From a virus: DNA of 41,764 nt. The notes under the pieces were generated by a model that did no database searches, was not told where the DNA came from, and saw only the letters and a list, made by a program, of their open reading frames with translations. The position numbers were made by a program, and so were the translations under genes. Within the stretch, counting starts at the first letter, position 1. Every line of letters starts with the position of its first letter. The stretch spans positions 1-41,764 of the IMG/VR virus record IMGVR_UViG_3300005466_000019; one strand, given 5' to 3'. Shown here one piece after another: positions 82-40,441 of this stretch.

Positions 82-300
82 GGATTTCTCCGACCATGAC
101 GCGCGCCCTTGCACAGTGTGGCGTTAGCTTAGGCTAATCGTGTCGTTCATTCTCTCGTACTCCAGCGAGAGGTGGACCGGAGAATAAATGTGGGCCACAC
201 GCCACTGAACGGCTTGAGTTCAGAGTTAGTCGCGGTTTCGGTTCTAGACCTGACCGCGCAAAATTTGAGAGAGCGCCGACGGGCTATAAACGTGGGGGAA
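82..300 (+). ncRNA. Candidate structured leader RNA upstream of the recombinase operon
   Basis: No credible reading frame lies here. Perfect complementary arms are dense: 86-92 with 178-184 (TTCTCCG/CGGAGAA), 116-122 with 194-200 (GTGTGGC/GCCACAC), and hairpins 124-128/133-137, 152-157/166-171, 205-210/218-223 and 231-236/253-258. The first two pairs interleave, so they would form a pseudoknot. The element ends shortly before the ribosome site (GGGGGA, near 294) of the gene at 305. It could be a cis-acting leader or a separately processed RNA; no known family was recognised. Confidence 0.5.
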
Positions 301-304
301 TAGC

Positions 305-1171
305 ATGAGCAAAACGGACAAGAAGGATAGGATCATCGCTCTGGTAGAAGGTGATTCAGGGAGCGGTAAGTCTTTCTTCATGGCTTGCCTTAAGAACGCT
401 GTTATCTACGACGTGGACCTTGGCGGCGGTTTGGCCGAGTACGAAGAGCGTATCAATAAGAATGGATCCGAGCGCGTCGAACTGGCTTCTTTTGGGGAAA
501 TCCTTTCCGATATTCGCCAGCGCCTTCGTTCCGGCAACCTCAAGGAAACGATTGTCATTGACCATGTGACTGGGCTTCACCAGGAATCGCTCTTGCGCCA
601 TAACCCAAACCAGGATTCTGACTATGGCCGCTCCGGGAACAAAGCAACCTATGAATGGAGGCAAATCCGAGAGTTCGCCAGGACCTTCGATTGCAATCTC
701 CTCATCGTGGCCCACATGAAGGCTGAATACGAGAAGGATAAACAGGTCGGCAAGATAGCCGACGGGGCGAAAAACATTGAGGGGGACATGCACATTGTTC
801 TGAGGCTCGAAAGCCTCAAGGACGACAAGGGCCGGAAGCGTTACCCGGCCACGGCTCACGTCATTAAATGGCGGCGCGATCCCGAAGACTCGCGGGGTCT
901 TCCGCCTGAATCTTTCAAATTTACTTTGGAAGAATTCGAGAAGATCCACGGTGCAGACTACAAGAGGCAGCGAGAAAAGGTCGTTCTGGCGAAGCCGGAA
1001 AGCATCGAGGCTCTTAACAAGGTTCTGGCCCTCCTGGATAAAGAAAAGGCCTCCGAACTTACGGCGAAGTGGATCAAGGCTGCTGGCGTTGAGTCTTTCG
1101 AGTTCATGACGGAAGAGCAGGTAGAGAAGTGCCAGGAAATGGTCAAAAAACTTATTCAAGGAGTCAAATAA
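305..1171 (+). CDS. Sak4-like RecA-core ATPase (single-strand annealing recombinase)
   Basis: A 288-residue P-loop ATPase. Walker A is GDSGSGKS at residues 16-23, and a Walker B-like strand (ETIVIDH) lies near residues 82-88. Size and motif spacing fit the AAA_24/Sak4 phage family, RecA-core proteins that promote single-strand annealing together with an SSB. The next gene, overlapping by one base (ATAATG), encodes an SSB-like protein, which supports the call. The start ATG has a GGGGGA site upstream. A generic phage nucleotide-binding protein of other function remains possible. Confidence 0.75.
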   Translation: MSKTDKKDRIIALVEGDSGSGKSFFMACLKNAVIYDVDLGGGLAEYEERINKNGSERVELASFGEILSDIRQRLRSGNLKETIVIDHVTGLHQESLLRHNPNQDSDYGRSGNKATYEWRQIREFARTFDCNLLIVAHMKAEYEKDKQVGKIADGAKNIEGDMHIVLRLESLKDDKGRKRYPATAHVIKWRRDPEDSRGLPPESFKFTLEEFEKIHGADYKRQREKVVLAKPESIEALNKVLALLDKEKASELTAKWIKAAGVESFEFMTEEQVEKCQEMVKKLIQGVK

Positions 1172-1650
1172 TGTCCCCTTTCCCGCATAACAGCACCGGA
1201 GTTTCAACCGATGGTCCCAAGAAGCCGGTCCTTCCTAAAGAACGCTACACCTTCAGCATCTTTGACGCTAAAGAAACAACCTCCAGCAGCGGCAATCCTA
1301 TGATCGAACTGGACATCAAGGTTATCGAACACGCTGTCTATCAGGACCACGACATGAAGCATTGGATCGTTTTTCTTCCTGCGGGGAAAAAAGGCGACTG
1401 GATGAACGTCCATTTTCGCCATTGCATCGGTGTTCCTTACGGTGGGGAGGACATCGTTGACGCCGCACAGTGGATCGGAAAGAAGTTTGATGCCGATTTG
1501 GACATTGAGACGACGCCGTACAAAAATAAAAAGGGACAAACCAGGTCAGATCCACGGAACAAGATTGTAAGGGTCTACCCCTACAAAGATCAGTTCCCGG
1601 AGATTGCCGCCCCCACTGCTGAAAAGAAGGACGAGGAAGTCCCTTTCTAG
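1171..1650 (+). CDS. DUF669/SSB-like single-stranded DNA-binding protein
   Basis: 159 residues. The segment around GNPMIELDIKV resembles the OB-fold DUF669 proteins of phage recombination modules, and the C-terminus is acidic and ends in DEEVPF, like the protein-interaction tail of bacterial SSBs (consensus DDDIPF). The start at 1171 is chosen because it overlaps the previous stop by one base and has AAGGAG at 1158-1163; an upstream in-frame ATG at 1129 lies inside the previous gene. Probably acts with the Sak4-like ATPase in annealing and genome repair. Confidence 0.7.
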   Translation: MSPFPHNSTGVSTDGPKKPVLPKERYTFSIFDAKETTSSSGNPMIELDIKVIEHAVYQDHDMKHWIVFLPAGKKGDWMNVHFRHCIGVPYGGEDIVDAAQWIGKKFDADLDIETTPYKNKKGQTRSDPRNKIVRVYPYKDQFPEIAAPTAEKKDEEVPF

Positions 1651-2020
1651 CCTTTTCCCAGGGCGCACATCACGGTAACTGCGCCATTCCGGGCCGCTTC
1701 GAGGCGGCGGGCTTCCGTGACAATTTGGCGCATCGAGGGCAGGCGAATTACAAGGACAACGCGAATAGGGTGAGACGTGCTTCCGTTCCGACTGGAAAGC
1801 TACCAGCCTAGCCCTTACGCCGATCGAAGCTGAGTCCCACTGAGCGACCTGGACGCCAAAACAATTTGAGGCATCAAGCGTGTAGGCACGCACCCTATGA
1901 CGTTGCGAGGGTCCCCGGCGACCGAGGGTTGGGCTGAAGGGGATGAAACTGTGGCAGCCGTGGCCCACTTGATACGGCAACTGTCCTATTGGGATGTGAC
2001 GACTCCCGTGCCTCAATAGA
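1651..2020 (+). ncRNA. Candidate large structured RNA with pseudoknot
   Basis: About 370 bases without a credible gene. 1670-1675 pairs with 1715-1720 (TCACGG/CCGTGA), 1680-1686 pairs with 1726-1732 (TGCGCCA/TGGCGCA), and a hairpin 1693-1697/1704-1708 lies inside. The two long helices interleave, which is the topology of an H-type pseudoknot. A second domain is closed by 1866-1873/2009-2016 (TTGAGGCA/TGCCTCAA) and contains hairpin 1878-1882/1887-1891; arms 1873-1878 and 1968-1973 also match. The RNA ends just before the GGAGG site of the next gene. A leftward frame covering the same bases gives no recognisable protein. Confidence 0.5.
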
Positions 2021-2031
2021 TTTGGAGGAAT

Positions 2032-2223
2032 ATGAGCCCGGCCACAAAAGAAAGCATGGTTCCGCTGGATAAAAAGATACGCCTTGGAGACCAGCTCTTC
2101 GACGTGGCCGCTTTAGGTTGGACCGGTGGAGAACGATATTACTGGCTCATTGACCAGCACGGTACCGTAGCTATGTATCCATGGTTTGTAGTCGAGGGAG
2201 AGTATGAAGACAAAAAAGCCTAA
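2032..2223 (+). CDS. Hypothetical protein, 63 aa
   Basis: Small acidic protein, not recognised. The ATG is preceded by GGAGG at 2024-2028. It is the first gene after the structured RNA and overlaps the next gene by 20 bases. The C-terminal half is rich in aromatic residues (YYWLIDQHG...YPWFVVEGEY), as in small phage DNA-metabolism accessory proteins, but no function can be given. Confidence 0.7.
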   Translation: MSPATKESMVPLDKKIRLGDQLFDVAALGWTGGERYYWLIDQHGTVAMYPWFVVEGEYEDKKA

Positions 2224-2386
2224 TACACCAGAGGTTCCAACAAAGAGCGGATGGGAAAGCCTCGTTGGCTTCATAGGGAATTGCGATTCGTGCAAGAAGC
2301 GGATCAACAAGAGCGACCCGACCTATTGGCGGTATATCGGAAAGATTAAAACTGAGATTCGGTGTAGGGAGTGCAGCGACAAGTGA
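2204..2386 (+). CDS. Small zinc-ribbon protein
   Basis: 60 residues with two cysteine pairs, CDSC and CREC, about 25 residues apart: a four-cysteine zinc ribbon. AGGGAG lies just upstream of the ATG. Proteins of this size and motif in early phage operons are usually nucleic-acid or protein-binding accessories; the exact role is unknown. Tightly packed between overlapping neighbours. Confidence 0.7.
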   Translation: MKTKKPNTPEVPTKSGWESLVGFIGNCDSCKKRINKSDPTYWRYIGKIKTEIRCRECSDK

Positions 2387-2622
2387 ACCGGGCCGAGATT
2401 CTTGAACAAATGATGAGGGAGAACGGGGGACAAGTTACCCTCGGGCAGATCCTTGCAAGGGGGGACGGTGTCTCCTGTAAATACACCCAAACGGTCAGTG
2501 AGTTAAGAAAGAAGCTCGCCCCCGAATGGACCGTGATTTGTGAGCAAAGCCCTGTGAGGCCAACGGAGAACGTCTATAGGCTCCAGCAGGTCATGGACCA
2601 TGGGCAAAGGATGTTTGCTTGA
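2383..2622 (+). CDS. Winged-helix-like DNA-binding protein
   Basis: 79 residues from GTG 2383, which overlaps the previous TGA (GTGA). A GTG 12 bases earlier (2371) is an alternative. The pattern of a short helical N-terminus, TLGQIL, then YTQTVSELRKKL and a variable wing before VYRLQQV resembles the small phage helix-turn-helix proteins that read 'ISELRK-G'. Likely binds DNA; target unknown. Confidence 0.6.
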   Translation: MNRAEILEQMMRENGGQVTLGQILARGDGVSCKYTQTVSELRKKLAPEWTVICEQSPVRPTENVYRLQQVMDHGQRMFA

Positions 2623-2831
2623 AGCCATACAAGTCACCTGAACTGCTCTATACCGCTGGACCGGAAAGAGATCTTATCCGGGCCGGGTGGTACGCCAGGG
2701 AAGGCAGGAGAAGGCTTGCAGAGCTTTGCATCAAGGCCGCAAGGCAAGGGTTTGATGATTTAACCTCCACGGCTGCCTTTAGAAACGCCGGGAATCCCGG
2801 TAAAACAAAGAAACGCCGGGAATCCCGGTGA
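2619..2831 (+). CDS. Hypothetical basic protein, 70 aa
   Basis: Starts at TTG 2619 overlapping the previous TGA, with AAAGG at about 2606-2610. The body is helical and basic (REGRRRLAELCIKAARQGF). Its last codons are formed by two copies of a 20-bp repeat (2782-2801, 2810-2829), so the C-terminus NAGNPGKTKKRRESR is repeat-derived. No family recognised. Confidence 0.6.
   Translation: MKPYKSPELLYTAGPERDLIRAGWYAREGRRRLAELCIKAARQGFDDLTSTAAFRNAGNPGKTKKRRESR
2782..2829. repeat. Two tandem 20-bp repeats with internal palindrome at a gene start
   Basis: GAAACGCCGGGAATCCCGGT occurs at 2782-2801 and again at 2810-2829, without mismatch, 28 bp apart. Each copy contains CCGGG-AAT-CCCGG. The second copy covers the GTG start region of the next gene. 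Could be an operator pair or a translational control hairpin. Confidence 0.85.
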
Positions 2832-3208
2832 GCGCCAAGTCAAAAGGCTCCCAATACGAAAGAGAAGTCATGAAGATCCTCGAATTACAGGGCTGGACAA
2901 TGGAGCGGGCTCACCCTCTCTACATACCCATAGGACCGCGCAGGATCGTTTCTAAGGCCCATGACTTCTTCGGAGCATGGGATTTGATAGGCAAGCAGGC
3001 TGGCTTCAAAACTCTTTGGGTTCAAGTCTCGACCCTGAACAACATCTCAGGCAAGCGGTCCCAGGTCAACGGCTTCCCCTGGACCCCTGAGCATGATGAG
3101 CCCTGCATCTTCGCAAGGGTTGACGGAAGAAACAGGCACTACCGAGTCTACTGGGGCAAGGAAAACTATGAGTGGCGCGGACATACAGAAAAGATCGTCC
3201 AAAATTAA
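2828..3208 (+). CDS. Putative PD-(D/E)XK-like nuclease / Holliday-junction-resolvase-like protein
   Basis: 126 residues from GTG 2828 (GTGA overlap). The order KGSQYEREVMKILELQGW, then GAWDLIG and LWVQVSTLNN with a later Arg, follows the E...D...(E/Q)xK layout of archaeal-type Hjc and related phage nucleases. The usual catalytic E-x-K is replaced by Q-V-S, so the protein may be inactive or a divergent subfamily. Its place near Sak4 and SSB genes fits a role in recombination. Confidence 0.45.
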   Translation: MSAKSKGSQYEREVMKILELQGWTMERAHPLYIPIGPRRIVSKAHDFFGAWDLIGKQAGFKTLWVQVSTLNNISGKRSQVNGFPWTPEHDEPCIFARVDGRNRHYRVYWGKENYEWRGHTEKIVQN

Positions 3209-3335
3209 GGTTTTTGCTCAATACAACCCTGAAACTAAGAAATGGCGCATCGTCGACGCCAAAGAAGAAGACACGACTAAGTTTATTTACGACATGCACA
3301 TCAAAGACTTGGAAGGATGGTTGGAAAATGAATAG
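3168..3335 (+). CDS. Hypothetical protein, 55 aa
   Basis: The ATG at 3168 lies inside the end of the previous gene (41-base overlap) and has GGGGCAAGGA just upstream. The short product alternates charged and aromatic residues (VFAQYNPETKKWRIVDAKEE). No family recognised. Ends eight bases into the next gene. Confidence 0.55.
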   Translation: MSGADIQKRSSKIKVFAQYNPETKKWRIVDAKEEDTTKFIYDMHIKDLEGWLENE

Positions 3336-3567
3336 TCAAACCACAAGTGGAAAACTGGAGGCGATTCTCCTCTCAGCAATTCGATCATTCATTGAGCAAG
3401 AGTCTCAAAGACTTCTAGATGAACACCTAAAGCAAATTAGCCTTGAATTAACTAACGCGGTATCCAGGCAGATAGGCAAGACAGTCGTAGAGCTTTCCTC
3501 AATGCTCTCTTTCGAGCGCACCGGAACACATCTGAAAATTACTGTAGAAGATAGAAGAGAAAAATAA
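3328..3567 (+). CDS. Hypothetical helical protein, 79 aa
   Basis: Start at ATG 3328, with AAGGA at 3313-3317; an earlier in-frame ATG at 3172 would give an unlikely basic extension covered by the neighbouring gene. Predicted mostly helical (LLSAIRSFIEQESQRLLDEHLKQISLELT). Function unknown. Its TAA stop (3565-3567) lies in the closing stem of the RNA element that follows. Confidence 0.6.
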   Translation: MNSQTTSGKLEAILLSAIRSFIEQESQRLLDEHLKQISLELTNAVSRQIGKTVVELSSMLSFERTGTHLKITVEDRREK

Positions 3568-3815
3568 AGCCCATCGCTGCTCGATGGCACAATTTAGGTT
3601 TCGGGCTCTCTTATACCCGTATACCTGGCTACACTGGGCATCCCCAAATATTCACGCTTAAGCCGATTGTCGGCTTGTTCTATCCCCAAGAGCAGCACAA
3701 GCCCTGTCAGGACGCTTTACCGTCGATCCGGTAGATCCTGAAGGAAAACAAGGATGAGGGGACGGACTACAACTCGTAACTTGAAATCTACGAGAGCAAT
3801 TGCGGAATGGGCTTT
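3566..3815 (+). ncRNA. Candidate 250-nt structured RNA closed by a 9-bp stem
   Basis: The ends match perfectly: AAAGCCCAT 3566-3574 with ATGGGCTTT 3807-3815. Inside are perfect hairpins 3660-3666/3670-3676 (AAGCCGA/TCGGCTT), 3707-3712/3736-3741 enclosing 3718-3722/3729-3733, and 3773-3778/3789-3794; CCATCG/CGATGG (3571-3576/3582-3587) is a competing hairpin. No open frame of note. The multi-branched shape suggests a stable RNA and not a simple untranslated region. Confidence 0.55.
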
Positions 3816-3819
3816 CACT

Positions 3820-3926
3820 GTACAAGTACTTAGTACTAGTACAAGGGGATGCCCAGGAAGCCAGGGAACGGGGAAAGAGAGTAACTAGATTAAGTAACTG
3901 TACTAGGTACTAAGTACTGTACTAGT
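3820..3926. repeat. GTAC-repeat cluster: candidate origin or operator
   Basis: GTAC occurs about every 6-7 bp in two blocks, 3820-3845 and 3900-3926. In the second block four units GTACTA(G/A)-like start at 3900, 3907, 3914 and 3919. AGTACTTAGTAC (3825-3836) is the exact inverse of GTACTAAGTACT (3907-3918). The pattern is iteron-like; it lies between a structured RNA and the next small-gene operon. Origin of replication or a multi-site operator are both possible. Confidence 0.5.
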
Positions 3927-3962
3927 AATAAGGGTGATGGAAATTAATCGAGAGGTCATTGA

Positions 3963-4145
3963 GTGAGCTTTGAAAAGTTCCTAGAAGCCTTCTGGCAGCG
4001 GCATCCTGGTTGGAGTGGGCAAGTAGTGGGAAAAGAGGTGTCAGGGGCCAAGGTGTCGATCCTGGCTCCAAAGAACATGCCTGTAGACGTGAAAGCCAAG
4101 GCCGCTGGAGATGACGACTCTTGGGACGGACAGGAGGACTTATGA
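3963..4145 (+). CDS. Hypothetical protein, 60 aa
   Basis: GTG start with AGAGG about eight bases upstream. First gene downstream of the GTAC-repeat block. N-terminus FEKFLEAFWQRHPGW is amphipathic; the tail is acidic (DDDSWDGQEDL). No family recognised. Stop overlaps the next ATG (ATGA). Confidence 0.6.
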   Translation: MSFEKFLEAFWQRHPGWSGQVVGKEVSGAKVSILAPKNMPVDVKAKAAGDDDSWDGQEDL

Positions 4146-4237
4146 GTGAAGCTGATATTTGGCTGGCCTTGGGCTGTTTCTGTGCGTTTTTGGCAATGGT
4201 TGCCTTCATTATCGAGGTTTTCGGGAGAAAAGATTGA
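4142..4237 (+). CDS. Single-pass membrane peptide, 31 aa
   Basis: ATGA overlap with the previous gene gives strong translational coupling. Almost the whole peptide is one hydrophobic helix (WLALGCFCAFLAMVAFII) followed by a short charged end (EVFGRKD). Inner-membrane location is likely. Function unknown; pairs with the next membrane peptide. Confidence 0.6.
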   Translation: MSEADIWLALGCFCAFLAMVAFIIEVFGRKD

Positions 4238-4371
4238 AGAAAGCGTTTGAGATTATAATTGCTTTTGTTTTGTTCGGATATTTCATGCTTCGCTGGATTC
4301 TTAGTGAAACTGTGGACGTTTGTTTTAGGTGTTTGGCAGAGGAAACTGGAGGAAAGAATGGGAGAGATTAA
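4234..4371 (+). CDS. Single-pass membrane peptide, 45 aa
   Basis: TTG start at 4234 overlaps the previous TGA and follows GGGAGA. Residues about 5-22 (FEIIIAFVLFGYFMLRWI) form one membrane span; the C-terminal part carries two cysteines (CFRC). Two consecutive, coupled membrane peptides suggest a pair acting together, for example in superinfection exclusion, but this is only inferred. Confidence 0.5.
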   Translation: MKKAFEIIIAFVLFGYFMLRWILSETVDVCFRCLAEETGGKNGRD

Positions 4372-4609
4372 GGATGGTGGGCCAGCGTTCCCGGGAGAGA
4401 TGAGGGCTGTTGCTTATAAAGTCGGACATGAAAATTGCGCCCAGGTTGTTAATTCAGGAATTCACACTGGCATGTCCCTCCGGGACTGGCTCGCTGGAAT
4501 GGCGCTGCCTGAGATCATGAGTTGGGGGGGAACCCATACGGCAGAAAAGGCCGCGGAGTTGGCCTACAAATATGCTGATGCCATGCTGAAGGTCCGGGAG
4601 GATAAATGA
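4358..4609 (+). CDS. Conserved phage protein of unknown function, 83 aa
   Basis: The ATG at 4358 follows GGAGGAAAG. The sequence has the layout of a common phage family: DGGPAFP near the start, GMSLRDWLAGMALP in the middle, and a C-terminal AAELAYKYADAML helix. This family is widespread in tailed phages of Gram-negative bacteria but has no assigned activity. Stop overlaps the next start (ATGA). Confidence 0.7.
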   Translation: MGEIKDGGPAFPGEMRAVAYKVGHENCAQVVNSGIHTGMSLRDWLAGMALPEIMSWGGTHTAEKAAELAYKYADAMLKVREDK

Positions 4610-4944
4610 CCCGCGCCGAGAGGATGAGGGATGAAGATTTGGAGTTCCTGCGGAAGCAGAACGAACGATTAGCCGGTAGGGTAAATGAACTTGAAAGGGA
4701 CGCCAACCGACACGCATATGATGTTTGCAAGGCTATTGACGCTAAACATTCTTTGGAGAAAGAGATTGCAGAAGCTAGTAAGCGCATCCGTTTTCTGGAA
4801 AACCGGTCTTACGAAGATGAGAAAAAGATCGAGCGGCTGGAGGGGGCGCTGAACAAATATGCAATACATCTCGATTGCGCTGAAAAATGCGAATGCGGAT
4901 TGACTGAAGCCCTCTCCCCCTCAGAGGAGGCAAGCCATGACTGA
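4606..4944 (+). CDS. Coiled-coil protein, 112 aa
   Basis: Residues about 10-85 carry a continuous heptad pattern of charged and leucine residues (LEFLRKQNERLAGRVNELE...IRFLENRSYEDEKKIERLEG), predicting a long coiled coil. C-terminal CAEKCECG may bind metal. Coupled to both neighbours by overlaps. No specific family recognised. Confidence 0.65.
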   Translation: MTRAERMRDEDLEFLRKQNERLAGRVNELERDANRHAYDVCKAIDAKHSLEKEIAEASKRIRFLENRSYEDEKKIERLEGALNKYAIHLDCAEKCECGLTEALSPSEEASHD

Positions 4945-5302
4945 CGGCCCAGCGAAGGCAGTTAATCGCGGAGGGGTTTTCTTCGATGTCTGTATTGGTG
5001 GGGAGCCTGTCATTGAGATCATGTCTGAGGGAGTGGCGATAGAGAGGGCTGGAAAGATTAACCGGCTCCTTGCGCCGCTTGTCGAGAAGGCCGCGCTATA
5101 CGACGAAATGATGAGGACCAAGAAGGCCGATCTTGAGTCGATCATGGCCCCGTTATTTGATAAGGCCGCGCTTGCCGACAGGATGGCGGAAGCGCTGTCC
5201 GAAGCCATTAATTGTCCACATGACCACTACGATTTCCCGGAAGTGAGCAAGAAAGCTGAGGCATTGATCGCCGCCTACGACCGGCTGAAGGAGGGGAAGT
5301 GA
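4937..5302 (+). CDS. Hypothetical protein, 121 aa
   Basis: Overlaps the previous gene by eight bases, with GGAGG upstream of the ATG. N-terminal half looks beta-rich (GGVFFDVCIGGEPVIEIM); the C-terminal half is helical with two similar segments, PLVEKAALYDEMM and PLFDKAALADRMA, suggesting an internal repeat. Not recognised. Confidence 0.6.
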   Translation: MTDGPAKAVNRGGVFFDVCIGGEPVIEIMSEGVAIERAGKINRLLAPLVEKAALYDEMMRTKKADLESIMAPLFDKAALADRMAEALSEAINCPHDHYDFPEVSKKAEALIAAYDRLKEGK

Positions 5303-5625
5303 GGCCGATCAAGTTCAGGGCGTGGGACAAGCGCATTAACAAATGGAGGGAGATGGATAAATTCGAGCGCATGGCCATCCTCGAAAGTCCTGATTTTATC
5401 ATCGAACAATTTACCGGACTCCACGACAAGAACGGGCGGGAGATTTACGAGGGGGACATCGTTCAGCACTCACCAGCCGCGGCCAAGTGGGTCATCGTTT
5501 ATCGGATGGGGTCTTTCTGCACACAGAACGTCAAAGCCGATATGGAATGTTACGTGGTTACAGGCTACGCCAGCGAATCCGAAGTCATCGGCAACATCCA
5601 CGAAAACCCGGAGCTTTTGAAATGA
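5299..5625 (+). CDS. YopX family protein
   Basis: 108 residues from GTG 5299 (GTGA overlap). It opens with RPIKFRAWDKRINKW and contains FTGLHDKNGREIYEGDIV and ESEVIGNIHENPELL, the hallmark segments of the YopX domain found in many phages. YopX proteins are small beta-rich accessory proteins without a proven activity. The family assignment is firm; the function is not. Confidence 0.85.
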   Translation: MRPIKFRAWDKRINKWREMDKFERMAILESPDFIIEQFTGLHDKNGREIYEGDIVQHSPAAAKWVIVYRMGSFCTQNVKADMECYVVTGYASESEVIGNIHENPELLK

Positions 5626-6008
5626 CCCCAACCCCACTTGACGAGAGGCCACTTGCTAGGGTGGAAAGGTCGGGGATAGAACCGTTGCGTTGGTGTGTTT
5701 CTATCGGCGGTGGCCCCATTTTCTACTCGGAGAGCGAGGCTCTTTGTAAAAAAATGGCAGACAACATCAACACCGCCCACCGCGCCGCCTGCAAGGCCAA
5801 GGTTCGGGAGGCGCTAGAGATGGCGTGCAAGGCGGTGTGCCAATACTGCGATCCGGTCATAGGGTATGAACCTCCGACGTTTGACGGGTTCGGCTGGCAC
5901 CACGCACAGCGGAGGGTCGTAAACGGTGAGGGTGAGCTTCGATTCGCTAAATGCAAAGCCGCTGAAATCCGCTCCATCTCCGTCAGCAAGGAGAAAAAGA
6001 ACCCGTGA
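5622..6008 (+). CDS. Hypothetical protein, 128 aa
   Basis: ATG 5622 overlaps the previous stop (ATGA). The middle contains CKAVCQYC, a possible metal site, followed by a segment with FDGFGWHHAQRR. Not assigned to a known family. Ends with a GTGA overlap into the next gene. Confidence 0.55.
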   Translation: MTPTPLDERPLARVERSGIEPLRWCVSIGGGPIFYSESEALCKKMADNINTAHRAACKAKVREALEMACKAVCQYCDPVIGYEPPTFDGFGWHHAQRRVVNGEGELRFAKCKAAEIRSISVSKEKKNP

Positions 6009-6247
6009 CCAAGCCAAAGAAGGGCGCAGGGGTGAAGAAGATCACTAGCAGGATGCAGATGGACTTCATGGAGGCAGCGCCACTAATTAAGGATCTCAAA
6101 GCATTAAAACTTAAACGCGCTAGATTTGAAGATAAATATGGAAACCATCCATCAAGGCATGAGCGCTATTCCACGATTTGGTGTCGGGCTAGAGATATAC
6201 GGATGGACATAGACGTGGCCCTCTGGAAGCTCTTTGAGTCTATCTAG
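6005..6247 (+). CDS. Hypothetical basic protein, 80 aa
   Basis: GTG start overlapping the previous TGA. Lysine- and arginine-rich (TKPKKGAGVKKITSR...LKALKLKRARFEDKYG), so nucleic-acid binding is possible. It is the last gene of the rightward early operon and converges on the leftward operon ending at 6271; no clear intrinsic terminator is visible in the 23-base gap. Confidence 0.55.
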   Translation: MTKPKKGAGVKKITSRMQMDFMEAAPLIKDLKALKLKRARFEDKYGNHPSRHERYSTIWCRARDIRMDIDVALWKLFESI

Positions 6248-6270
6248 AATGGGCAGTAAGGCCCCAAGGA

Positions 6271-6453
6271 TCAAATTGGCGGCTTGTTCTCTGACTTCCT
6301 CATGTCTTTCGTCTTCCAGCGCAATACCCCTCGTTTACCGGCCTTAGCGTTCCAATAACGCGATGTGCAGCTTGGACATGCCTTGGGCTTCCAGCCCCTT
6401 TGAGCGGGGACTAAGGATTCCCATTCGTGCTTGCATCTAAGGCATTTCCACAT
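6271..6453 (-). CDS. Small zinc-ribbon protein
   Basis: 60 residues. CLRC and CPSC pairs, about 24 residues apart, form a typical zinc ribbon (MWKCLRCKHEWES...). The start at 6453 is chosen because the upstream extension would lie within the preceding gene, and AAAGGAGAG precedes it. Last gene of the leftward operon; overlaps the upstream gene by 17 bases. Confidence 0.6.
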   Translation of the reverse strand: MWKCLRCKHEWESLVPAQRGWKPKACPSCTSRYWNAKAGKRGVLRWKTKDMRKSENKPPI

Positions 6454-6763
6454 TCGAGGGACTCTCCTTTGCCTTAAGGCTTTCTTTTCTCTCTTCCCAC
6501 TTGAGCCGACGTAAGGCGTCATCCCCGAACACAGAAGACATCGAATAGCCATGGGAAATCCCGCTTATTGGCGCTGGATTCATGATCGCCTTGTCTCCGC
6601 TGCGGATGCTGAGAGAGTCTCCGTCTTGGACTATTAAAACCGTCCCGGAGACCTTGGCCTCTTGAACTGTTCCGGCGCTGTCTACATAAACTACCCTTGT
6701 TTCTTTCGTTGTCCAGGCTGTGATAACTCCGAACACTAGTGCTGCTATTAGCGGGATTGGCAT
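6437..6763 (-). CDS. Exported or membrane-anchored protein, 108 aa
   Basis: GGAGG precedes the ATG. Residues 2-17 (PIPLIAALVFGVITAW) form a hydrophobic N-terminal segment followed by a beta-rich region (TRVVYVDSAGTVQEAKVSGTVLIVQDGDSLSIRSG), suggesting a signal anchor and periplasmic domain. No lipobox. Function unknown. Confidence 0.6.
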   Translation of the reverse strand: MPIPLIAALVFGVITAWTTKETRVVYVDSAGTVQEAKVSGTVLIVQDGDSLSIRSGDKAIMNPAPISGISHGYSMSSVFGDDALRRLKWEERKESLKAKESPSNVEMP

Positions 6764-6824
6764 TTAGTTTCCTCCGTTAGACTTCGATTGTCAATCAATT
6801 ACTGATTTGTGTCAAAATTAGTAA

Positions 6825-7109
6825 TTACTGCCCCTCCCCCTCTCCTCGCGGATGAGACTGGTCCCCGTATATTTCTTTTAGGCGGGAGTCTATACGACCG
6901 TTTATCTCTTCAGCTTTATTCACTGATTCTTTTGGTTCACGCCCCATCTTGGAATCCCAATGGCTCCTAGAGAACTCGACATCGAACAAACCGGATGCGA
7001 TCATGGATGCCGTCTCTAGGTCATACCCCTTCTCACACAACCTAAAGCCATACTCCATTGCGGACATAAACGCTGACTTCACATCTGCCTTACTGTCGTT
7101 TGTATTCAT
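6825..7109 (-). CDS. Hypothetical protein, 94 aa
   Basis: Strong GGAGGGGAGGAG ribosome site upstream of the ATG. Helical N-terminal half (VKSAFMSAMEYGFRLCEKGYDLETASMIASGLF), acidic middle, short G/E-rich end. Not recognised. A 61-base gap separates it from the next gene of the operon. Confidence 0.65.
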   Translation of the reverse strand: MNTNDSKADVKSAFMSAMEYGFRLCEKGYDLETASMIASGLFDVEFSRSHWDSKMGREPKESVNKAEEINGRIDSRLKEIYGDQSHPRGEGEGQ

Positions 7110-7123
7110 AGTCTCCTCCCCTC

Positions 7124-7453
7124 CTACGCGGGGTTCTTCTTCCAGACAGACCAGTCAGGCTCACCATTGACTCTAGTATCGTATGAGTCGTCATAGTCAA
7201 GGCCAGGAGTCATCCCCATACAAGACTTGCAAGCCCTCCATGGGACAGTCCATCCGCCACCGTAGGACGTATATACAAGCACGTCTTCAGCCTTACCACA
7301 GACACACTCTTTCCAGTGATCCCCTCTCCAATTGTCATTCAATTCTTCAGCTGTACGAAAAAGCGTTGGGATATAAACGTCGGATGTCCCGTTGTATTCA
7401 AAGAACATCACTTCTCCGTCCTTGAACTTAACCTGCCCGCTTGCATGGCTCAT
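7124..7453 (-). CDS. Hypothetical protein with zinc-like cysteine pairs, 109 aa
   Basis: Contains CVC and CKSC about 30 residues apart and an aromatic-rich C-terminus (PDWSVWKKNPA). The N-terminal part reads as a beta sheet (GQVKFKDGEVMFFEYNGTSDVYIP). GAGAGGGTGAT precedes the ATG. No family recognised. Confidence 0.6.
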   Translation of the reverse strand: MSHASGQVKFKDGEVMFFEYNGTSDVYIPTLFRTAEELNDNWRGDHWKECVCGKAEDVLVYTSYGGGWTVPWRACKSCMGMTPGLDYDDSYDTRVNGEPDWSVWKKNPA

Positions 7454-7462
7454 ATCACCCTC

Positions 7463-7666
7463 TCACCCTTTGGGAGGCTTAGGCTTATTTCTGATCCACC
7501 AACAAATAGCCTCCAGCTGTTCGGGCGTGAACTCGCCATCTAAGACGGCCGTTTCTTTTCCTCCTCTTGCCGAGGGCCAATCCAAATATTCACCTGCCAA
7601 GGTTCCAAGAGTGCCGTCGTTTTGTATGGCGTCCCCAAGGATTTCTCTCGCCTTTTTTTCGTCCAT
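7463..7666 (-). CDS. Hypothetical protein, 67 aa
   Basis: Short acidic protein in the leftward operon, GGGGTGAG upstream. The C-terminal segment FTPEQLEAICWWIRNKPKPPKG resembles endings of small phage proteins of unknown role. Nothing further can be assigned. Confidence 0.6.
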   Translation of the reverse strand: MDEKKAREILGDAIQNDGTLGTLAGEYLDWPSARGGKETAVLDGEFTPEQLEAICWWIRNKPKPPKG

Positions 7667-7667
7667 C

Positions 7668-8060
7668 TCACCCCGCCTTTTCTTTCAGCTTGACCCATTC
7701 CCATCCATAGGTCTTCTTGCAATCTATATTGATTGCCGCCCTACTGCCCTCTTGTATGTATAGCGTCCCGTCCCCATCCCAAAACCACGCCACAAAGAGC
7801 GGGCCACAAGTCCAGTAAGCGCAATGCTTTTTGCGGTCCTCTTCCCACTCTTTAACGGGATTCCATTCACTCGGAGCGCCCATCAATATCTCCGCTATCC
7901 GTTTAGGGCACTCTTCTCTGGTGAATTCGGGCCGCACGTCGAAGGTGGAATAACACCCAAGATCCCCACCATACTTGTCCTCGACAAAGATGTAGTCCCT
8001 TAATTCCTCCCCAAACTCGTTAGGGTCTTCCATTGTCTGTGTGTCCTTAGTGATCTTCAT
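7668..8060 (-). CDS. Hypothetical protein, 130 aa
   Basis: Start at ATG 8060, preceded by GAGGAAGA and overlapping the upstream gene by 14 bases; upstream in-frame ATGs lie deeper in that gene. Tryptophan-rich acidic protein (WNPVKEWEEDRKKHCAYWTCGPLFVAWFWDGDG). No recognised domain. Confidence 0.6.
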   Translation of the reverse strand: MKITKDTQTMEDPNEFGEELRDYIFVEDKYGGDLGCYSTFDVRPEFTREECPKRIAEILMGAPSEWNPVKEWEEDRKKHCAYWTCGPLFVAWFWDGDGTLYIQEGSRAAINIDCKKTYGWEWVKLKEKAG

Positions 8061-8235
8061 TCTTCCTCGCATGAGGCGCATAATAGAGCCCAAGAGGCTT
8101 GTTCAAATCAATAGGCTCATTCATCGGGAGCCACTTCCCCTCACGACTATCGAAATATATGTCTCCCAGCAAAACAATCTCCCCAACTTTAAGACGGCGA
8201 TAGCCTTTAGGCAATTCCAGCTTTGTCCTTCCCAT
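8047..8235 (-). CDS. Hypothetical protein, 62 aa
   Basis: ATG 8235 overlaps the previous stop (TGATG); a GTG one codon upstream is the alternative. The sequence LPKGYRRLKVGEIVLLGDIYFDSREGKWLPM looks like a small beta-barrel fold. Not recognised. Confidence 0.6.
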   Translation of the reverse strand: MGRTKLELPKGYRRLKVGEIVLLGDIYFDSREGKWLPMNEPIDLNKPLGLYYAPHARKNEDH

Positions 8236-8465
8236 CACCCCACCCTCTCAATCCAGAGTTTGACTTTCTGCTCATAAACACCGTCTTTCTTGCGTCGTGG
8301 AAGGAATCGGTTAATCTTAGTTAATCGTTTTAGCCTGTCCCCATCATTCCGTGTATAACGTGCCAGTTCTGGGTAACAATTTAACTGAAGCGTTACTCCA
8401 TCTTCCAAATAAGGATATCCTTCTGCCAAAAGAAACAGTCTCTTCTTCCCCGTCTTCCTGGTCAT
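8235..8465 (-). CDS. Hypothetical basic protein, 76 aa
   Basis: GGGAGG precedes the ATG. Very basic (KTGKKR..., KRLTKINRFLPRRKKDG), so nucleic-acid binding is plausible. No family recognised. Tightly packed in the operon. Confidence 0.55.
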   Translation of the reverse strand: MTRKTGKKRLFLLAEGYPYLEDGVTLQLNCYPELARYTRNDGDRLKRLTKINRFLPRRKKDGVYEQKVKLWIERVG

Positions 8466-8468
8466 GAG

Positions 8469-8657
8469 TTAGGCCCTCCCGTTATACTCGACCGCATATC
8501 CGCTCTCAGCAGAAACCTTGTGCCCTTTATTTCTGGCATGGTCAGATGCCGCTTTCTGGCCCGTAATAAAATCTCCCGTCTCCCAACTGCAATCTGTGCA
8601 ATGAGCAATGAAATGCACAAGATGCTTCCTAAGCCCCTCTTTGCCTTTGCGGGTCAT
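8469..8657 (-). CDS. C2H2 zinc-finger-like protein, 62 aa
   Basis: Contains C-x2-C-x17-H-x4-H (CTDCSWET...SDHARNKGH), the ligand spacing of a single C2H2-type finger, embedded in a basic protein. Such single-finger proteins occur in many phages. Probably binds nucleic acid; target unknown. Confidence 0.6.
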   Translation of the reverse strand: MTRKGKEGLRKHLVHFIAHCTDCSWETGDFITGQKAASDHARNKGHKVSAESGYAVEYNGRA

Positions 8658-8661
8658 TTCT

Positions 8662-8867
8662 TCATCCCTCTTTCATTCTGTCTTGATGGACCCTGATTAA
8701 GAACTTACGAGCCCTGCTAATACCGCAGTCATCGCACTTGGACTCATCGAACTCGGCCACCCAGGCTTTGAGGCGCAGTTCTCAGAATGAGTGGTCCTGG
8801 TTTGCGTGACAAGATGCTCGATCAATTCGATTGCTTCCCCGTATGGCGTTAAGGATTCATTCTTCAC
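8662..8867 (-). pseudogene. Frameshifted small CxxC protein gene
   Basis: Starting at GTG 8867 (GGAGGGGG just upstream), the frame reads well (VKNESLTPYGEAIELIEHLV...), then near 8780 the coding signal moves to another frame (LRLKAWVAEFDESKCDDCG...KEG) ending in TGA at 8662-8664. The interval is 206 bases, two more than a multiple of three, so one inserted base would restore about 68 codons. Either a sequencing or assembly indel, a recent mutation, or a programmed shift. The restored C-terminal half has a CDDC metal-like pair. Confidence 0.55.
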
Positions 8868-8869
8868 GT

Positions 8870-9127
8870 CTACCCCCTCCCTTCCTTGGTGGCTTTGGCA
8901 ATTGCATCATTAAGCCTTTGATACGCGTCCTCAGTTTCAGGCGCAAGGTTAAGTATTTCCCTATGGCACTCCAATTCTTCTAAAGCAATTCTTCCCGCCT
9001 CCACCAACTCCCTGATGGTGGCCTTTTGCAGTCGGATAGTAACTTCCGCGTCTGCAAGTTCATTGACGGCTCTGTTGTAATACATGCCGTTAATACACCC
9101 CATCTCCCCTTCCTCCCCATCTTTCAT
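8870..9127 (-). CDS. Hypothetical helical protein, 85 aa
   Basis: GGAGG precedes the ATG at 9127; a second ATG eight codons in has an equally good site. Long helical middle (LADAEVTIRLQKATIRELVEAGRIALEELE), probably coiled coil. Similar in style to phage 'early' helical proteins; function unknown. Confidence 0.6.
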   Translation of the reverse strand: MKDGEEGEMGCINGMYYNRAVNELADAEVTIRLQKATIRELVEAGRIALEELECHREILNLAPETEDAYQRLNDAIAKATKEGRG

Positions 9128-9139
9128 TCCGGCCTCCGG

Positions 9140-9571
9140 TTAGTTATCGAACCAGAAAACGATACGAGCATCTTCCACGCCCTTGGGCCTGTATTCTGGA
9201 TGCTTGACGAATGTGTCCCACGAATCGCTGAATATCCATCCAAAGAATTGAGTGGCCCAGTCATTGTCTTCCGGCTCATTCGACTCTTTCCCCGTCCTCT
9301 TGAAATACTCCGGGATGTCGGCCACTTCCGCCGCGCTCAACCATGAATGACTATGCCCATCTGAATCCCATTTTTCAGAATGAAACTTGGTCATGAACGT
9401 GGAGTCCTTGGGGATTCCCCTCGGCTGAGAAACAGGCTTTATGTCGCCGCTGTTGCGGACATCGGCCATCCGAGCAAAGACCCCATAACGCCGCTGTCCT
9501 TCAATTGGTCCATAATAATGCCACTCGCCGTTGATCTTGACCTCGGCGTGCATGTGGATGTCACAGCCCAT
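9140..9571 (-). CDS. Conserved phage protein (MGCDIH family), 143 aa
   Basis: Begins MGCDIHMHAEVKINGEWHYY and contains ADVRNSGDIKPVSQPRGIP and GHSHSWLSAAEV, the conserved blocks of a widespread phage protein family of unknown function. Several conserved His, Cys and Asp residues near the N-terminus suggest metal binding. The ATG overlaps the previous stop by one base (TAATG). Confidence 0.75.
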   Translation of the reverse strand: MGCDIHMHAEVKINGEWHYYGPIEGQRRYGVFARMADVRNSGDIKPVSQPRGIPKDSTFMTKFHSEKWDSDGHSHSWLSAAEVADIPEYFKRTGKESNEPEDNDWATQFFGWIFSDSWDTFVKHPEYRPKGVEDARIVFWFDN

Positions 9572-9741
9572 TATTTCGCACCCCCTTCCCGGGGGGAGGA
9601 TTCTTTGACCGGGACCAAGACCAACTCCCTCGATCCACCAACCGGGACATTGGGCATTTCAGTTACCGTCAAGCTGATCCTGTGGGGCTTTTTACCCGCA
9701 CCCGGATAAACCCTGATAATTACTCGACCCTTCTCACCCAC
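9571..9741 (-). CDS. Hypothetical protein, 56 aa
   Basis: GTG start at 9741 lies inside the end of the upstream gene (eight-base overlap), and the TAA shares its last base with the next ATG. Beta-rich short protein (GRVIIRVYPGAGKKPHRISLTV...ELVLVPV). The tight packing on both sides supports it despite its small size. Confidence 0.55.
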   Translation of the reverse strand: MGEKGRVIIRVYPGAGKKPHRISLTVTEMPNVPVGGSRELVLVPVKESSPREGGAK

Positions 9742-9901: not shown

Positions 9902-9919
9902 TGTCATCCTCCTCCGGGG

Positions 9920-11466: not shown

Positions 11467-11473
11467 AATACAC

Positions 11474-37583: not shown

Positions 37584-37695
37584 GTTTTCGACCGAACCCA
37601 GCGTTAAGGCTCTTTCTCCGTCTTTACGCCGCATTTCAGTGTCTTGCGCGATTTATCGACGGAAAATAGAAAAAACAGGCGCTCTTTGAATTTAT

Positions 37696-37739
37696 GGGCG
37701 GGTGGCGGAACTGGCAGACGCACAGGACTTAAAATCCTG
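37696..37739 (+). other. attP: attP core: 5' half of a tRNA-Leu(UAA) gene
   Basis: The 44 bases fold as the first half of tRNA-Leu: 7-base acceptor strand, TG at 8-9, D arm with GG in the loop, anticodon stem CAGGA/TCCTG and loop CTTAAAA with anticodon TAA (37730-37732). No variable arm, T arm or 3' end follows, so it is not a working tRNA. It lies 45 bases from the end of int and between matching arm sites. Crossover in the anticodon region would rebuild the host tRNA using the phage 5' half. Confidence 0.85.
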
Positions 37740-37767
37740 AATACAGATCGACGGTAAGCGTGTTTTT

Positions 37768-37786
37768 ATTGTGCTGTTTTTGTGCT
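37768..37786. repeat. Integrase arm-type site, right copy
   Basis: ATTGTGCTGTTTTTGTGCT, one mismatch to 37565-37583; overlaps the int stop codon. An 8-base pair ATCGACGG (37655-37662 and 37747-37754) also flanks the core. Confidence 0.65.
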
Positions 37787-38798
37787 AACGGAACTGGAAT
37801 TTGCGGGCTTCCCGCTTCAAATGCTCTAAGACGAGGCCCTTGTAGCCCATCGTCGTTTGAATGGACTGATGCCCAGCGGAGTCCTTGACGGCTGTAATCT
37901 CCATTCCAGACATCAAGGCGTGGGTGATAAACGTCTTTCTGAGGTCGTGGACTGTAACGTCCCTAAGGCCCGCCCGGACCAAGCATCTCTTCATGATGTT
38001 GTAGACCGAAAAGCGGGTATGAGCCTTTCCGCCCCTTTTGAAGATTAGCCCATCCCTTTTAAGGACATCGGTTTGGGCTAGATGTTCCACAACTTCTTTC
38101 ATGAGCGGAACTTGCCTCTCCTTGTGTCCCTTCCCATAGAAGCTGACCCACCCCATCTTAAGGTTAAAATGACGGCTCTCCAGGATAGCAACCTCGCTCT
38201 CCCTTGGCCCCTCGTACAGGAAGATGATTGCCATCAAATAGGCATCCGGGTATGAGTCTTCCTGGCAAGAGGAAAGGAAAGCCTTGACCTCTTTCCCCAT
38301 AAGGAACCTGGGGGTCTTTTGCGTTCCGGCAAACTGCTTGAGACCAACAAAAGGAGAAATTGGAAGGTACCTCCACGACACCGCCTTGTTAAAGGCCGTC
38401 TTCAGGTGCCTATAGTGAACGTTGGCATTGCCAGGGCTAGTCTCTTGGGCTACAGACGTAAGATGGGATTCCATGGTCTTAAAATCAATAGAGGACAGAC
38501 TACGGCCCTCATGAGCTTTAGAGAATGGCTCAATAATGCTCTTGTCTTTTTCGTAAGTTTTTGGATCTCTGCACGTTTTCTTGCGGTGGGATAAATACTC
38601 TTTGAGAAACGTATCCAGCTTCAAATAGGGGGAACTCATCCCAGATGCCCCAAACAAGCGGGCCTTGTCCTTCTCTCCCTTTAGAATCCCAGCCTCATCC
38701 TCATCTTCCGTTTTAAGTGATTCTCTCCGGGTTTCTCCATTCTCAGCCCATCGTATCCACCAGTATGGGCTTCCCGGCCTCTTGTAGATGGTGGACAT
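37785..38798 (-). CDS. int: Tyrosine-family integrase
   Basis: 337 residues. All catalytic residues are visible: Arg199 (EGPRESEVAIL), Lys223 (GKGHKER), His284/Arg287 (VHDLRKTF), His310 (AGHQSIQT) and Tyr319 (MGYKG). The N-terminus (YKRPGSPYWWIRW) is an arm-binding domain of the AP2-like type, then a SAM-like core-binding domain. It catalyses integration at tRNA-Leu(UAA). Encoded just after the lipoprotein gene in one transcript (5-base gap). Confidence 0.95.
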   Translation of the reverse strand: MSTIYKRPGSPYWWIRWAENGETRRESLKTEDEDEAGILKGEKDKARLFGASGMSSPYLKLDTFLKEYLSHRKKTCRDPKTYEKDKSIIEPFSKAHEGRSLSSIDFKTMESHLTSVAQETSPGNANVHYRHLKTAFNKAVSWRYLPISPFVGLKQFAGTQKTPRFLMGKEVKAFLSSCQEDSYPDAYLMAIIFLYEGPRESEVAILESRHFNLKMGWVSFYGKGHKERQVPLMKEVVEHLAQTDVLKRDGLIFKRGGKAHTRFSVYNIMKRCLVRAGLRDVTVHDLRKTFITHALMSGMEITAVKDSAGHQSIQTTMGYKGLVLEHLKREARKFQFR

Positions 38799-38803
38799 AG
38801 ACC

Positions 38804-39121
38804 CTACGGTAATGGAACAAGAACTATTGTTCCACCAGAATCCTTCACACGTATTTCCCCAGCGCCATACTCAACAACCATCCCATTTTTTAAGATTACG
38901 TAATAATCTGCCCGATCCATGGCCCATCCACTTGCTAGTCGATGGGAGTATTTCAAGGCCTCAAAATCACCTTCTCTTTTAAATCCGTCTGGGTTGCCAA
39001 GAGTGTCTATGACTTCGGCTTTGCTCATTCCTTCCCTCACGCGAGACATTCTTTCCCCAATGGTTGCACAAGCTATTAGGAAAACAGTCGAGAGGACTGA
39101 CCCTAAAACTATTTTGTTCAT
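38804..39121 (-). CDS. BamE/SmpA-OmlA-like lipoprotein
   Basis: 105 residues, GGGAGG upstream. Signal peptide with lipobox LIAC and lipidated Cys18. The mature region REGMSKAEVIDTLGNPDGFKREGDFEALKYS matches the SmpA/OmlA fold of BamE, a partner in outer-membrane protein assembly. In a prophage it could alter the host surface and block superinfection; that is inferred from its place beside int. Confidence 0.7.
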   Translation of the reverse strand: MNKIVLGSVLSTVFLIACATIGERMSRVREGMSKAEVIDTLGNPDGFKREGDFEALKYSHRLASGWAMDRADYYVILKNGMVVEYGAGEIRVKDSGGTIVLVPLP

Positions 39122-39436
39122 CTTTCCTCCCTCTTGATTTATTTTACGGTCTAACCTAAACTTCTCTTGGCTTTAACGGTGCCTCGTTTTTTGGGGCGGC
39201 TTCCCTACAAGGGGGGCTCTTGTCAGGACCGGAAAGGTCGCTTGCTCACCTTACCCGCAAGGGTTTGGGGGGTGGCGGTCGTCCGGGTTGCTGACAAGTG
39301 CTCGTACGATACGTACCCCCCTGCTCTTGCGGTTCCGAACTACCACCGTAAGCCTGTTCCCACAAAAAAAATGATAATTGGACATTCTGTTGCATACAAT
39401 CCCATGGCGGGGCTACTTAGGTCATGGGAGATATGT
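39122..39436. other. Gene-free region with folded RNA candidate
   Basis: No credible gene. It includes the ncRNA candidate at 39211-39321. Its left part should contain the promoter of the lipoprotein-int transcript; no clear -35/-10 pair could be fixed. Confidence 0.4.
39211..39321 (+). ncRNA. Candidate structured RNA, about 110 nt
   Basis: GGGGGG (39211-39216) can pair with CCCCCC (39316-39321), and CTTGTCAG (39219-39226) pairs perfectly with CTGACAAG (39291-39298). Inside are GACC-GGAAA-GGTC and ACCC-GCAA-GGGT (39253-39264), the latter with a GNRA tetraloop. It lies before the response-regulator gene and could act in cis on it. Confidence 0.5.
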
Positions 39437-39823
39437 GTGAAACCTGTAATAATTATCATAGAGGATGATCCGATAACATTGGAAATGCTTGTTTCGTTCT
39501 TTCGCAACTCAATTTACGAGGTTCGGCCCGCTTCAGACGGTTTAAGCGCATTAAGCAAGTTAGATGAGAATGTCAAATTGATTATTACTGACCAGGAAAT
39601 GCCCGGATTGTATGGTTCTGACTTTCGGGCGATGGTAAAGTCCCGCCTAAATATTCCAGTCATAGGTATAACCGGCTTACGAATGATCGATAGAGATGAT
39701 TTCTCAAAAAAATTCGACGGGGTCTTATTCAAACCTTTTCGTCTTTCTTCTTTGAGGCAGTTGCTCGACCGTCTTCTTTCTTTGTCCCATGAAGGATATG
39801 AATGGGGGGGGAAGGGTAAATAA
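39437..39823 (+). CDS. Free-standing response regulator receiver domain
   Basis: 128 residues from GTG 39437, with GGGAG eight bases upstream. Full receiver signature: acidic pair Asp10/Asp11, phospho-acceptor Asp52 (IITDQEMPG), Thr79 (GITG), Lys99 (FKPF). No output domain, like CheY or Spo0F. A host-derived gene in the lysogeny region that may tap into a host two-component pathway. It converges with, and overlaps by 95 bases, the RHH gene on the other strand. Confidence 0.85.
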   Translation: MKPVIIIIEDDPITLEMLVSFFRNSIYEVRPASDGLSALSKLDENVKLIITDQEMPGLYGSDFRAMVKSRLNIPVIGITGLRMIDRDDFSKKFDGVLFKPFRLSSLRQLLDRLLSLSHEGYEWGGKGK

Positions 39824-40040
39824 TAGTGTTGCCGTCAACCTGAACCGGACTCTTAATTTCAGATGTCCTGCCCTGATTAGCCAGCCATTCCCTAAATATA
39901 ACCTTAAACTGACCAGATAAATCCCTCACCTGCTCTTCAGCAATCTTCCTGAATAGCGCCTCTGTCTCATCGTCGAGAGTCAGCTGTAATGGGGACTTTC
40001 GTTTTTTGTTCACAATAAATTTTCTTGCATGTTCTTGCAT
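39729..40040 (-). CDS. Ribbon-helix-helix-like regulator, 103 aa
   Basis: KSPLQLTLDDETEALFRKIAEEQVRDLSGQFKVIFREWL reads as strand-helix-helix of the Arc/MetJ type, with a basic N-terminus and a charged tail. The ATG lies in a tandem repeat (TTCTTGCATG twice) suitable as an autoregulatory operator, and TACAAT upstream may be its -10 box. No ribosome site. Candidate repressor of the early operon starting at 40454. Confidence 0.55.
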   Translation of the reverse strand: MQEHARKFIVNKKRKSPLQLTLDDETEALFRKIAEEQVRDLSGQFKVIFREWLANQGRTSEIKSPVQVDGNTIIYPSPPIHILHGTKKEDGRATASKKKDEKV

Positions 40041-40041
40041 G
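40022..40041. repeat. Tandem 10-bp repeat over a regulator start codon
   Basis: TTCTTGCATG occurs twice in a row, 40022-40031 and 40032-40041, covering the ATG of the leftward RHH gene. Directly repeated sites are typical of RHH operators. Confidence 0.65.
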
Positions 40042-40333
40042 TCATTGTATGATTACTCATAAGACAGCATTTCATTGGCATGATCCATTAGAATCGGTGT
40101 TTCAATGAAGGTTACAGCATAGTCTCTCACGGCTTAAGCATAACATGACCTCATTAGGATTGCCTTAATAACTTGAAACAGGGTTGTAAAAGATTTGAGC
40201 AATTACAGGGAAGGAATAAAAACCCTCCCACCCGGGCCTGACCTCGCAGTCACCCGGCAATTTAGCAAAAAAATGAGACAGCTATGAGCCCGAATCGACA
40301 AATAACAGGGGGTCATAATCACAAGTCCTCTTT
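40042..40333. other. Intergenic control region between the divergent RHH and early operons
   Basis: No gene seen. It holds inverted arms TTCATTG (40071-40077) and CAATGAA (40103-40109), and AT-rich promoter-like stretches around 40160-40200. It separates the leftward RHH gene from the rightward early operon, so an early promoter and its operators should lie here, but no box pair is convincing. Confidence 0.4.
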
Positions 40334-40441
40334 GCGGGCTTGTCGGGGGCTTCGGGCAACCGGGGCTCTTCGGGGTAACTCCCCGAGGCCCGCATCTATC
40401 ACGCGCCGGATGATTCCTTTCATGGGGGGATTGTCCGGCGC
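40334..40441 (+). ncRNA. Candidate structured leader RNA of the early operon
   Basis: GCGGGC (40334-40339) pairs with GCCCGC (40388-40393), enclosing TCGGGG-TAACT-CCCCGA (40370-40386). A second domain is closed by the perfect 8-bp stem GCGCCGGA/TCCGGCGC (40403-40410/40434-40441), ending 12 bases before the ATG at 40454, which has no visible ribosome site. This suggests control of translation or early transcription. Confidence 0.5.

Follow-up and report, generated by a model that had tools for sequence, protein, structure and literature searches.

The covariation and model-search data suggest that the 41,764-base virus record IMGVR_UViG_3300005466_000019 of IMG/VR (hereafter the window, meaning this whole stretch of DNA at its full length) derives from a temperate, podovirus-like phage with three or more structured RNA elements of undescribed kinds, and that these elements most simply act in cis on the transcripts that contain them; we give this reading a probability of about 0.6. 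The best reading of the three elements is that they are cis-acting terminators or attenuators, with conservation, structure and position seen in the alignments and the role deduced from them. The original prediction had proposed six large structured RNAs (here RNA1 to RNA6) in gene-free stretches at 82-258, 1651-2016, 3566-3815, 11762-11935, 39211-39321 and 40334-40441. The strongest element, which we call the leader RNA, is absent from that list. Judged from comparative analysis, the predicted structures of the leader RNA and of RNA5 can be regarded as firm and that of RNA3 as good. The three elements are:

16862-16989, plus strand: leader RNA upstream of the portal operon (model match, nine phages, covariation)
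39210-39329, plus strand: RNA5, with closing stem P1, long stem P2 and inner stems, P1 being followed by a U-run in most members (model match, covariation)
3634-3857, plus strand: RNA3, with closing stem CTGGGCATC/GATGCCCAG and core 3684-3805, beside GTACTTAGTAC repeats (two homologues in the relative G050)

Relatives were gathered with profiles built from alignments of the terminase, the capsid and the portal, which gave several dozen phage contigs; querying viral contigs with the Sak4-like or the capsid protein as a single sequence gave nothing, and alignments of two and seven sequences succeeded. G050 (42,603 bases) has a terminase 63% identical to that of the window, and the other useful relatives are G385 (41,781 bases), G001 and seven shorter records whose portals are roughly 50% identical. 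The three RNA-model searches over relatives covered 100 loci each, duplicates and host stretches being left out, and all E-values from RNA models are rough.

The region around 16908-16989 matches noncoding sequence 5' of the portal or neighbouring genes in relatives. The leader RNA consists of two hairpins, a terminator hairpin with a U-run, and an outer stem that encloses the terminator hairpin and U-run, directly followed by the ribosome-binding site (RBS). In addition, the loop of the second hairpin pairs as a pseudoknot with the linker before the terminator hairpin. In the structure as drawn from four relatives, 99.3% of cells are paired and 15 of 39 pairs are doubly changed. A model built from these four relatives without the pseudoknot found five more phages in the 100 sources, including the window at E 1.9e-14 (L106 and L144 are the same record), and in the resulting nine sequences 97.8% of cells are paired and 34 of 39 pairs are doubly changed. 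The covariation score over the nine phages is 0.731, compared with 0.198 for shuffled sequences and at most 0.177 for slid partners. The terminator hairpin has 13 base pairs (bp), 100% of its cells are paired in all nine sequences, and a T-run follows it in nearly all. The pseudoknot is 93% paired in the nine phages with 3 of 6 pairs doubly changed, and this pairing is not imposed by the model because the pseudoknot was left out of it. It reads CCUAAG/CUUAGG in two phages, CUUAGC/GCUAAG in L088 and CCUAGA/UCUAGG in L103, is partly gapped in L104, L003 and L106, and has one mismatch each in L107 and the window. The leader RNA is present in eight of ten records with portals about 50% identical. 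Among 340 genomes of Elusimicrobiota, the probable host phylum (see below), the leader model matched six, two of them at E < 1e-3. A tenth copy lies on one of these genome contigs (G211, E 2.9e-7), before open reading frames (ORFs) that look scaffold- and capsid-like by eye; a candidate in G186 is borderline (E 4.8e-4) and is not claimed.

For RNA5, the copies in the window and G385 were combined into a profile, which picked up a third one in G050, near a homologue of the gene that stands next to the integrase, as in the window. Conversely, a model built from G385 and G050 only recovered the window at E 2.8e-6, all other matches over the 100 loci having E of 0.79 or more. In these three sequences 6 of 9 P2 pairs are doubly changed. 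Applied to the 340 Elusimicrobiota genomes, the same two-sequence model matched 25 at E of 0.1 or less, ten of them below 1e-5 and the best at 2.2e-15; as rough controls on the same genomes, the RNA3 model gave nothing below 0.0087 and the leader model the two matches below 1e-3. In an alignment of 28 sequences, which leaves out one of the near-identical L185 and L186 and one of the identical L181 and L182, P2 is 94% paired with 8 of 9 pairs doubly changed, and 4 of 5 pairs of the closing stem are doubly changed. A U-run lies 3' of the closing stem in most copies, for which reason we propose that the closing stem itself is a terminator. An IMG/VR search with the RNA5 motif gave three stretches, of which two were already known and the third, on a 366-kb contig, was not confirmed by the model. 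A possible likeness of the GGGUUA part to c-di-GMP riboswitches was dropped after a permissive Rfam comparison of the L176 copy, in which only implausible matches appeared; on host stretches L174-L183 Rfam found tRNA and one SAM aptamer only, none of them at RNA5. By eye a promoter could be made out ahead of RNA5, but the promoter scan did not report it, and it is not claimed.

The true extent of the element proposed at 3566-3815 is about 3634-3857. In G050 one RNA3 homologue likewise precedes repeats of the GTACTTAGTAC kind, and a shorter one lies at 6866-6987; a profile of only these two copies matches the window at E 2.8e-14. The closing stem is identical in sequence and so carries no covariation information. 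In the core, one 6-bp helix has all six pairs doubly changed in the three sequences; a second helix is paired in two sequences and misaligned in the third. The RNA3 model found no further member over the 100 relative loci, which leaves the family in two phages only; in the 340 Elusimicrobiota genomes it gave ten matches at E of 0.1 or less, the best (0.0087) being at chance level, and of 27 IMG/VR stretches with the motif only the known G050 copy was confirmed. We read RNA3 as a structured element beside GTACTTAGTAC repeats, possibly tied to replication. Repeats of the GTACTTAGTAC type lie at 3817-3930, directly after RNA3, also in G050, and are possibly replication or operator sites.

The remaining four of the six proposed stretches are:

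40334-40441, plus strand: RNA6, heading the early operon, in which a branched, GC-rich hairpin precedes a terminator-like one (40403-40441)
82-258, plus strand: RNA1, an unproven candidate
1651-2016, plus strand: RNA2, a candidate that is not supported
11762-11935, plus strand: RNA4, an unproven candidate

Folding energies on the plus strand were compared with those of 200 dinucleotide shuffles. RNA6 is the best of the six (z -6.4; 0 of 200 shuffles as good), followed by 39211-39321 (z -3.6), 3566-3815 (z -2.8), RNA4 (z -2.2) and RNA1 (z -1.9), and RNA2 folds no better than its shuffles (z +1.2; 179 of 200 equally good or better). The minus strand gives z of -1.6 to -2.9 for five of the six stretches, so that energy alone does not settle the strand of 3566-3815. 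The argument from numerous perfect helices, judged by helices of at least 6 bp against the mean of 100 shuffles, holds clearly for RNA1 (8 versus 3.2, exceeding 99 of 100 shuffles) and 3566-3815 (11 versus 4.8), weakly for RNA4 (5 versus 2.3), 39211-39321 (3 versus 1.5) and RNA6 (4 versus 1.2), and fails for RNA2, which is at the shuffled mean (12 versus 13.1). In a plus-strand scan of 1042 windows of 120 bases, z was lowest at 21401 and 16881, then at 40321, with 39201 eighth; only the windows at 40321/40281 and 39201 place any of the six stretches among the ten lowest. Single-sequence folding thus gives good support for two of the six stretches and flags two unlisted places.

No homologue at a meaningful E-value was found for RNA1, RNA2 or RNA4 in 1.75 Mb of relatives, or for RNA6 in the profile search of relatives; the RNA2 sequence had weak matches in 10 of the 340 Elusimicrobiota genomes, and none of the eight stretches read resembled a homologue. 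We therefore lean slightly towards chance structure for these four stretches, that is, ordinary noncoding DNA, one with a plain terminator: RNA2 has z +1.2, RNA1 and RNA4 lie near z -2 without a homologue, and the second hairpin of RNA6, with 18 pairs, is a terminator-like site. The missing homologues are weak evidence, however, because few close relatives were available for comparison, and both the z of RNA6 and the helix number of RNA1 speak against chance. RNA6 precedes the opening gene of what is presumably the early operon, the scan found no promoter right before it, and it could be a terminator, an attenuator or an element like put of phage HK022.

In total, compensatory changes bear out two of the six proposed RNAs (3566-3815 and 39211-39321), one more (40334-40441) is plausible and three lack support. 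All six stretches exist and are gene-free as described, except that a long ORF with a TTG start (39167-39823), its REC-domain part beginning near 39437, spans 39211-39321; minus-strand ORFs of uncertain standing cross some of the six. The statement that the elements share no primary sequence holds for the one element compared, as a model of 3684-3806 run with filters off found no second copy in the window. An undescribed regulatory nature is credible for the two elements with compensatory changes and no Rfam match, three others being unsupported and one resembling a hairpin plus terminator. They do not form one set: the family at 39211 also occurs in genomes of the host phylum, that at 16862 heads structural operons, and that at 3634 occurs only in two phages. 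Nothing points to packaged RNAs.

The search of the window against described families gave no Rfam match at gathering scores and three implausible ones at E up to 10, GOLLD and ROOL being among the families covered. From this and from a literature search, the best reading is that the RNAs belong to undescribed families, one of them common to phages and the host phylum. GOLLD and ROOL, as described in the available text, are structured, functionally uncharacterised RNAs found in phages and prophages, both near tRNA islands, GOLLD often exceeding 800 nucleotides (nt) (PMC12286853); the elements in the window are likewise structured phage RNAs but have 120-225 nt, no tRNA gene in the window and no Rfam match. 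The closest precedent is that of manA and wcaG, riboswitch candidates described in the available text as structured leader RNAs of cyanophages and marine bacteria, partly tied to surface-polysaccharide genes (PMC2864571). RNA5 likewise occurs in phages and in genomes of the host phylum; it differs in having no Rfam match, in ending in its own closing-stem terminator, and in its hosts and genes. A further study, on human microbiomes, lists 28 candidate RNAs that neighbour integrase, sortase or phage domains, and its available text does not mention Elusimicrobia (PMC8040213). No paper on structured RNAs of Elusimicrobiota was among the literature matches listed, and, going by these matches, hardly any RNA work exists on this phylum or its phages.

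Genomic contexts of RNA5 were read for 19 of 20 fetched host stretches. Host copies often lie just upstream of pilin-like, glycosyltransferase or dynamin-like genes, and the downstream genes are varied. Among ten neighbouring proteins, Pfam found two pilin-type N-terminal motifs, one glycosyltransferase each of family 8 and family 2, a divergent WYL regulator and a GTPase whose dynamin match falls narrowly short of the cut-off; three others matched no family, and one gave a sub-threshold match only. WYL regulators are linked to phage defence. One host contig (L180) has two copies, at 4929-5048 and 9408-9521, and pilin-type genes begin 31-34 nt after both of these and after the L189 copy. A same-strand start with a Shine-Dalgarno-like sequence lies at most 220 nt downstream of 9 of 24 copies, compared with 9% of random positions (this count keeps the identical copies L181 and L182). 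Combining these data, we suggest that RNA5 is a domain some 120 nt long, that its closing stem and U-run would act as a terminator, that in hosts, where it is often in the 5' leaders of varied genes, it would most simply be an attenuator, perhaps ligand-controlled, and that in phages it may be a short stand-alone RNA. Transcription-attenuating riboswitches likewise join a conserved upstream domain to an intrinsic terminator before the RBS; unlike these in general, the closing stem of the RNA5 domain would double as the terminator stem, and any ligand is hypothetical.

Alternatively, RNA5 could be a trans-acting stand-alone small RNA that binds protein or RNA and ends in its own closing-stem terminator, its position before genes being incidental. 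The varied host genes and the lack of an evident target gene downstream in phages fit this model; the excess of nearby translation starts and the repeated placement before pilin-type genes in L180 and L189 do not, and we consider it rather doubtful. A bolder form of the attenuator model is equally tentative, and we do not expect it to hold in full: RNA5 would represent a new class of Elusimicrobiota riboswitch, or of second-messenger sensor, governing dynamin/WYL operons and surface operons (pilin, glycosyltransferase), perhaps with a defensive role, and would have been acquired by temperate phages beside the integrase; the leader RNA would be a separate phage-specific attenuator gating the whole structural operon. 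An RNA element common to hosts and phages makes the borrowing of host RNA switches by phages testable.

For the leader RNA, an arrangement that has the terminator first and then the U-run, the outer stem and the RBS points to an attenuator where the structural operon begins. In this model, (i) the nascent RNA of the portal operon would fold into the two hairpins, the loop of the second pairing with the linker before the terminator, (ii) the state of this pseudoknot would set whether the polymerase halts at the U-run, and (iii) on read-through the outer stem would shut round the spent terminator, leaving the RBS free. Alternatively, the leader RNA would be no switch and would separate the terminase part from the portal operon as an unconditional terminator or insulator, or serve there in RNA processing or stability. 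Its core is indeed a terminator hairpin with a U-run in nearly all nine phages, but the covarying pseudoknot, the upstream hairpins and an outer stem reaching past the U-run would be superfluous for a plain terminator, and we regard this alternative as unlikely. The attenuator model suggests a way for a phage to restrain its structural genes through RNA alone.

HK022 put is described in the available text as a cis-acting element, some 70 nt long, whose two stem-loops lie downstream of early promoters (PMC9378689). The leader RNA shares with it cis-type stem-loops near an operon start and differs in its pseudoknot and its U-run terminator within an outer stem, no terminator being described for put in that text; compared by description, RNA6 has two hairpins before the first early gene, 108 nt and a terminator-like second hairpin. 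The put RNA acts on RNA polymerase so that it passes terminators with no protein factor. That the RNAs are put-like anti-termination elements modifying host RNA polymerase at phage operon starts is very improbable: RNA6 does head the early operon and the leader RNA the structural one, but RNA6 ends in a terminator-like hairpin and lacks a homologue, and RNA3 and RNA5 do not fit put.

Several points weigh against the cis-acting terminator or attenuator reading that we favor. The evidence for RNA3 comes from three sequences. A same-strand ORF of any kind follows 19 of 24 RNA5 copies, yet also 57% of random positions, and the G050 copy is followed by no ORF of 70 amino acids starting within 220 nt. 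The model search did not find the leader RNA in G385 or in the short L109, which have a similar portal. Model-based alignments are biased towards the model's own structure, and transcription, control of termination, switching and every role proposed here are deduced from sequence. Probing and ligand searches can now be aimed at three RNA families, two of which covary strongly and the third less so.

The window encodes Sak4-like and SSB-like proteins, a terminase, an SU10-type portal and a tyrosine integrase, and is probably a complete circular assembly, since it has a 50-base direct terminal repeat (1-50 and 41715-41764). Two further features are:

37695-37740, plus strand: attP, identical over 46 bases to the 5' half of a tRNA-Leu gene, adjoining the integrase
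12035-12460, no strand assigned: conserved noncoding stretch adjoining RNA4, before the HNH and terminase genes, 63% identical to L105 5893-6318

The exact 44-base attP pattern is present in seven genome contigs, all seven titled Elusimicrobia, and on this ground the host is probably a member of the Elusimicrobiota; the portal protein had one weak match (E 8e-4) in the 340 genomes of this phylum. No tRNA gene was found in the window. DNA searches against phage records gave no match for 1-20000, likewise none for 1-4000, and just the tRNA-like part of attP among the matches listed for 37680-41764. The stretch at 12035-12460, kept in one relative (L105), may be a DNA site. In G050 (L085) the stretch 6350-6500 folds strongly, with a closing stem of 12 bp and then a hairpin resembling a terminator; it was not matched to the window. 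At 2781-2831, AAACGCCGGGAATCCCGG is copied in tandem where two small ORFs meet. A near-perfect inverted repeat with 17-bp arms at 21413-21459, between the capsid gene and an HNH-like ORF, has the lowest z of the plus-strand scan. Within the structural operon, at 23066-26594, three ORFs resemble glycosyltransferases by eye, and relatives have homologues at the same position.

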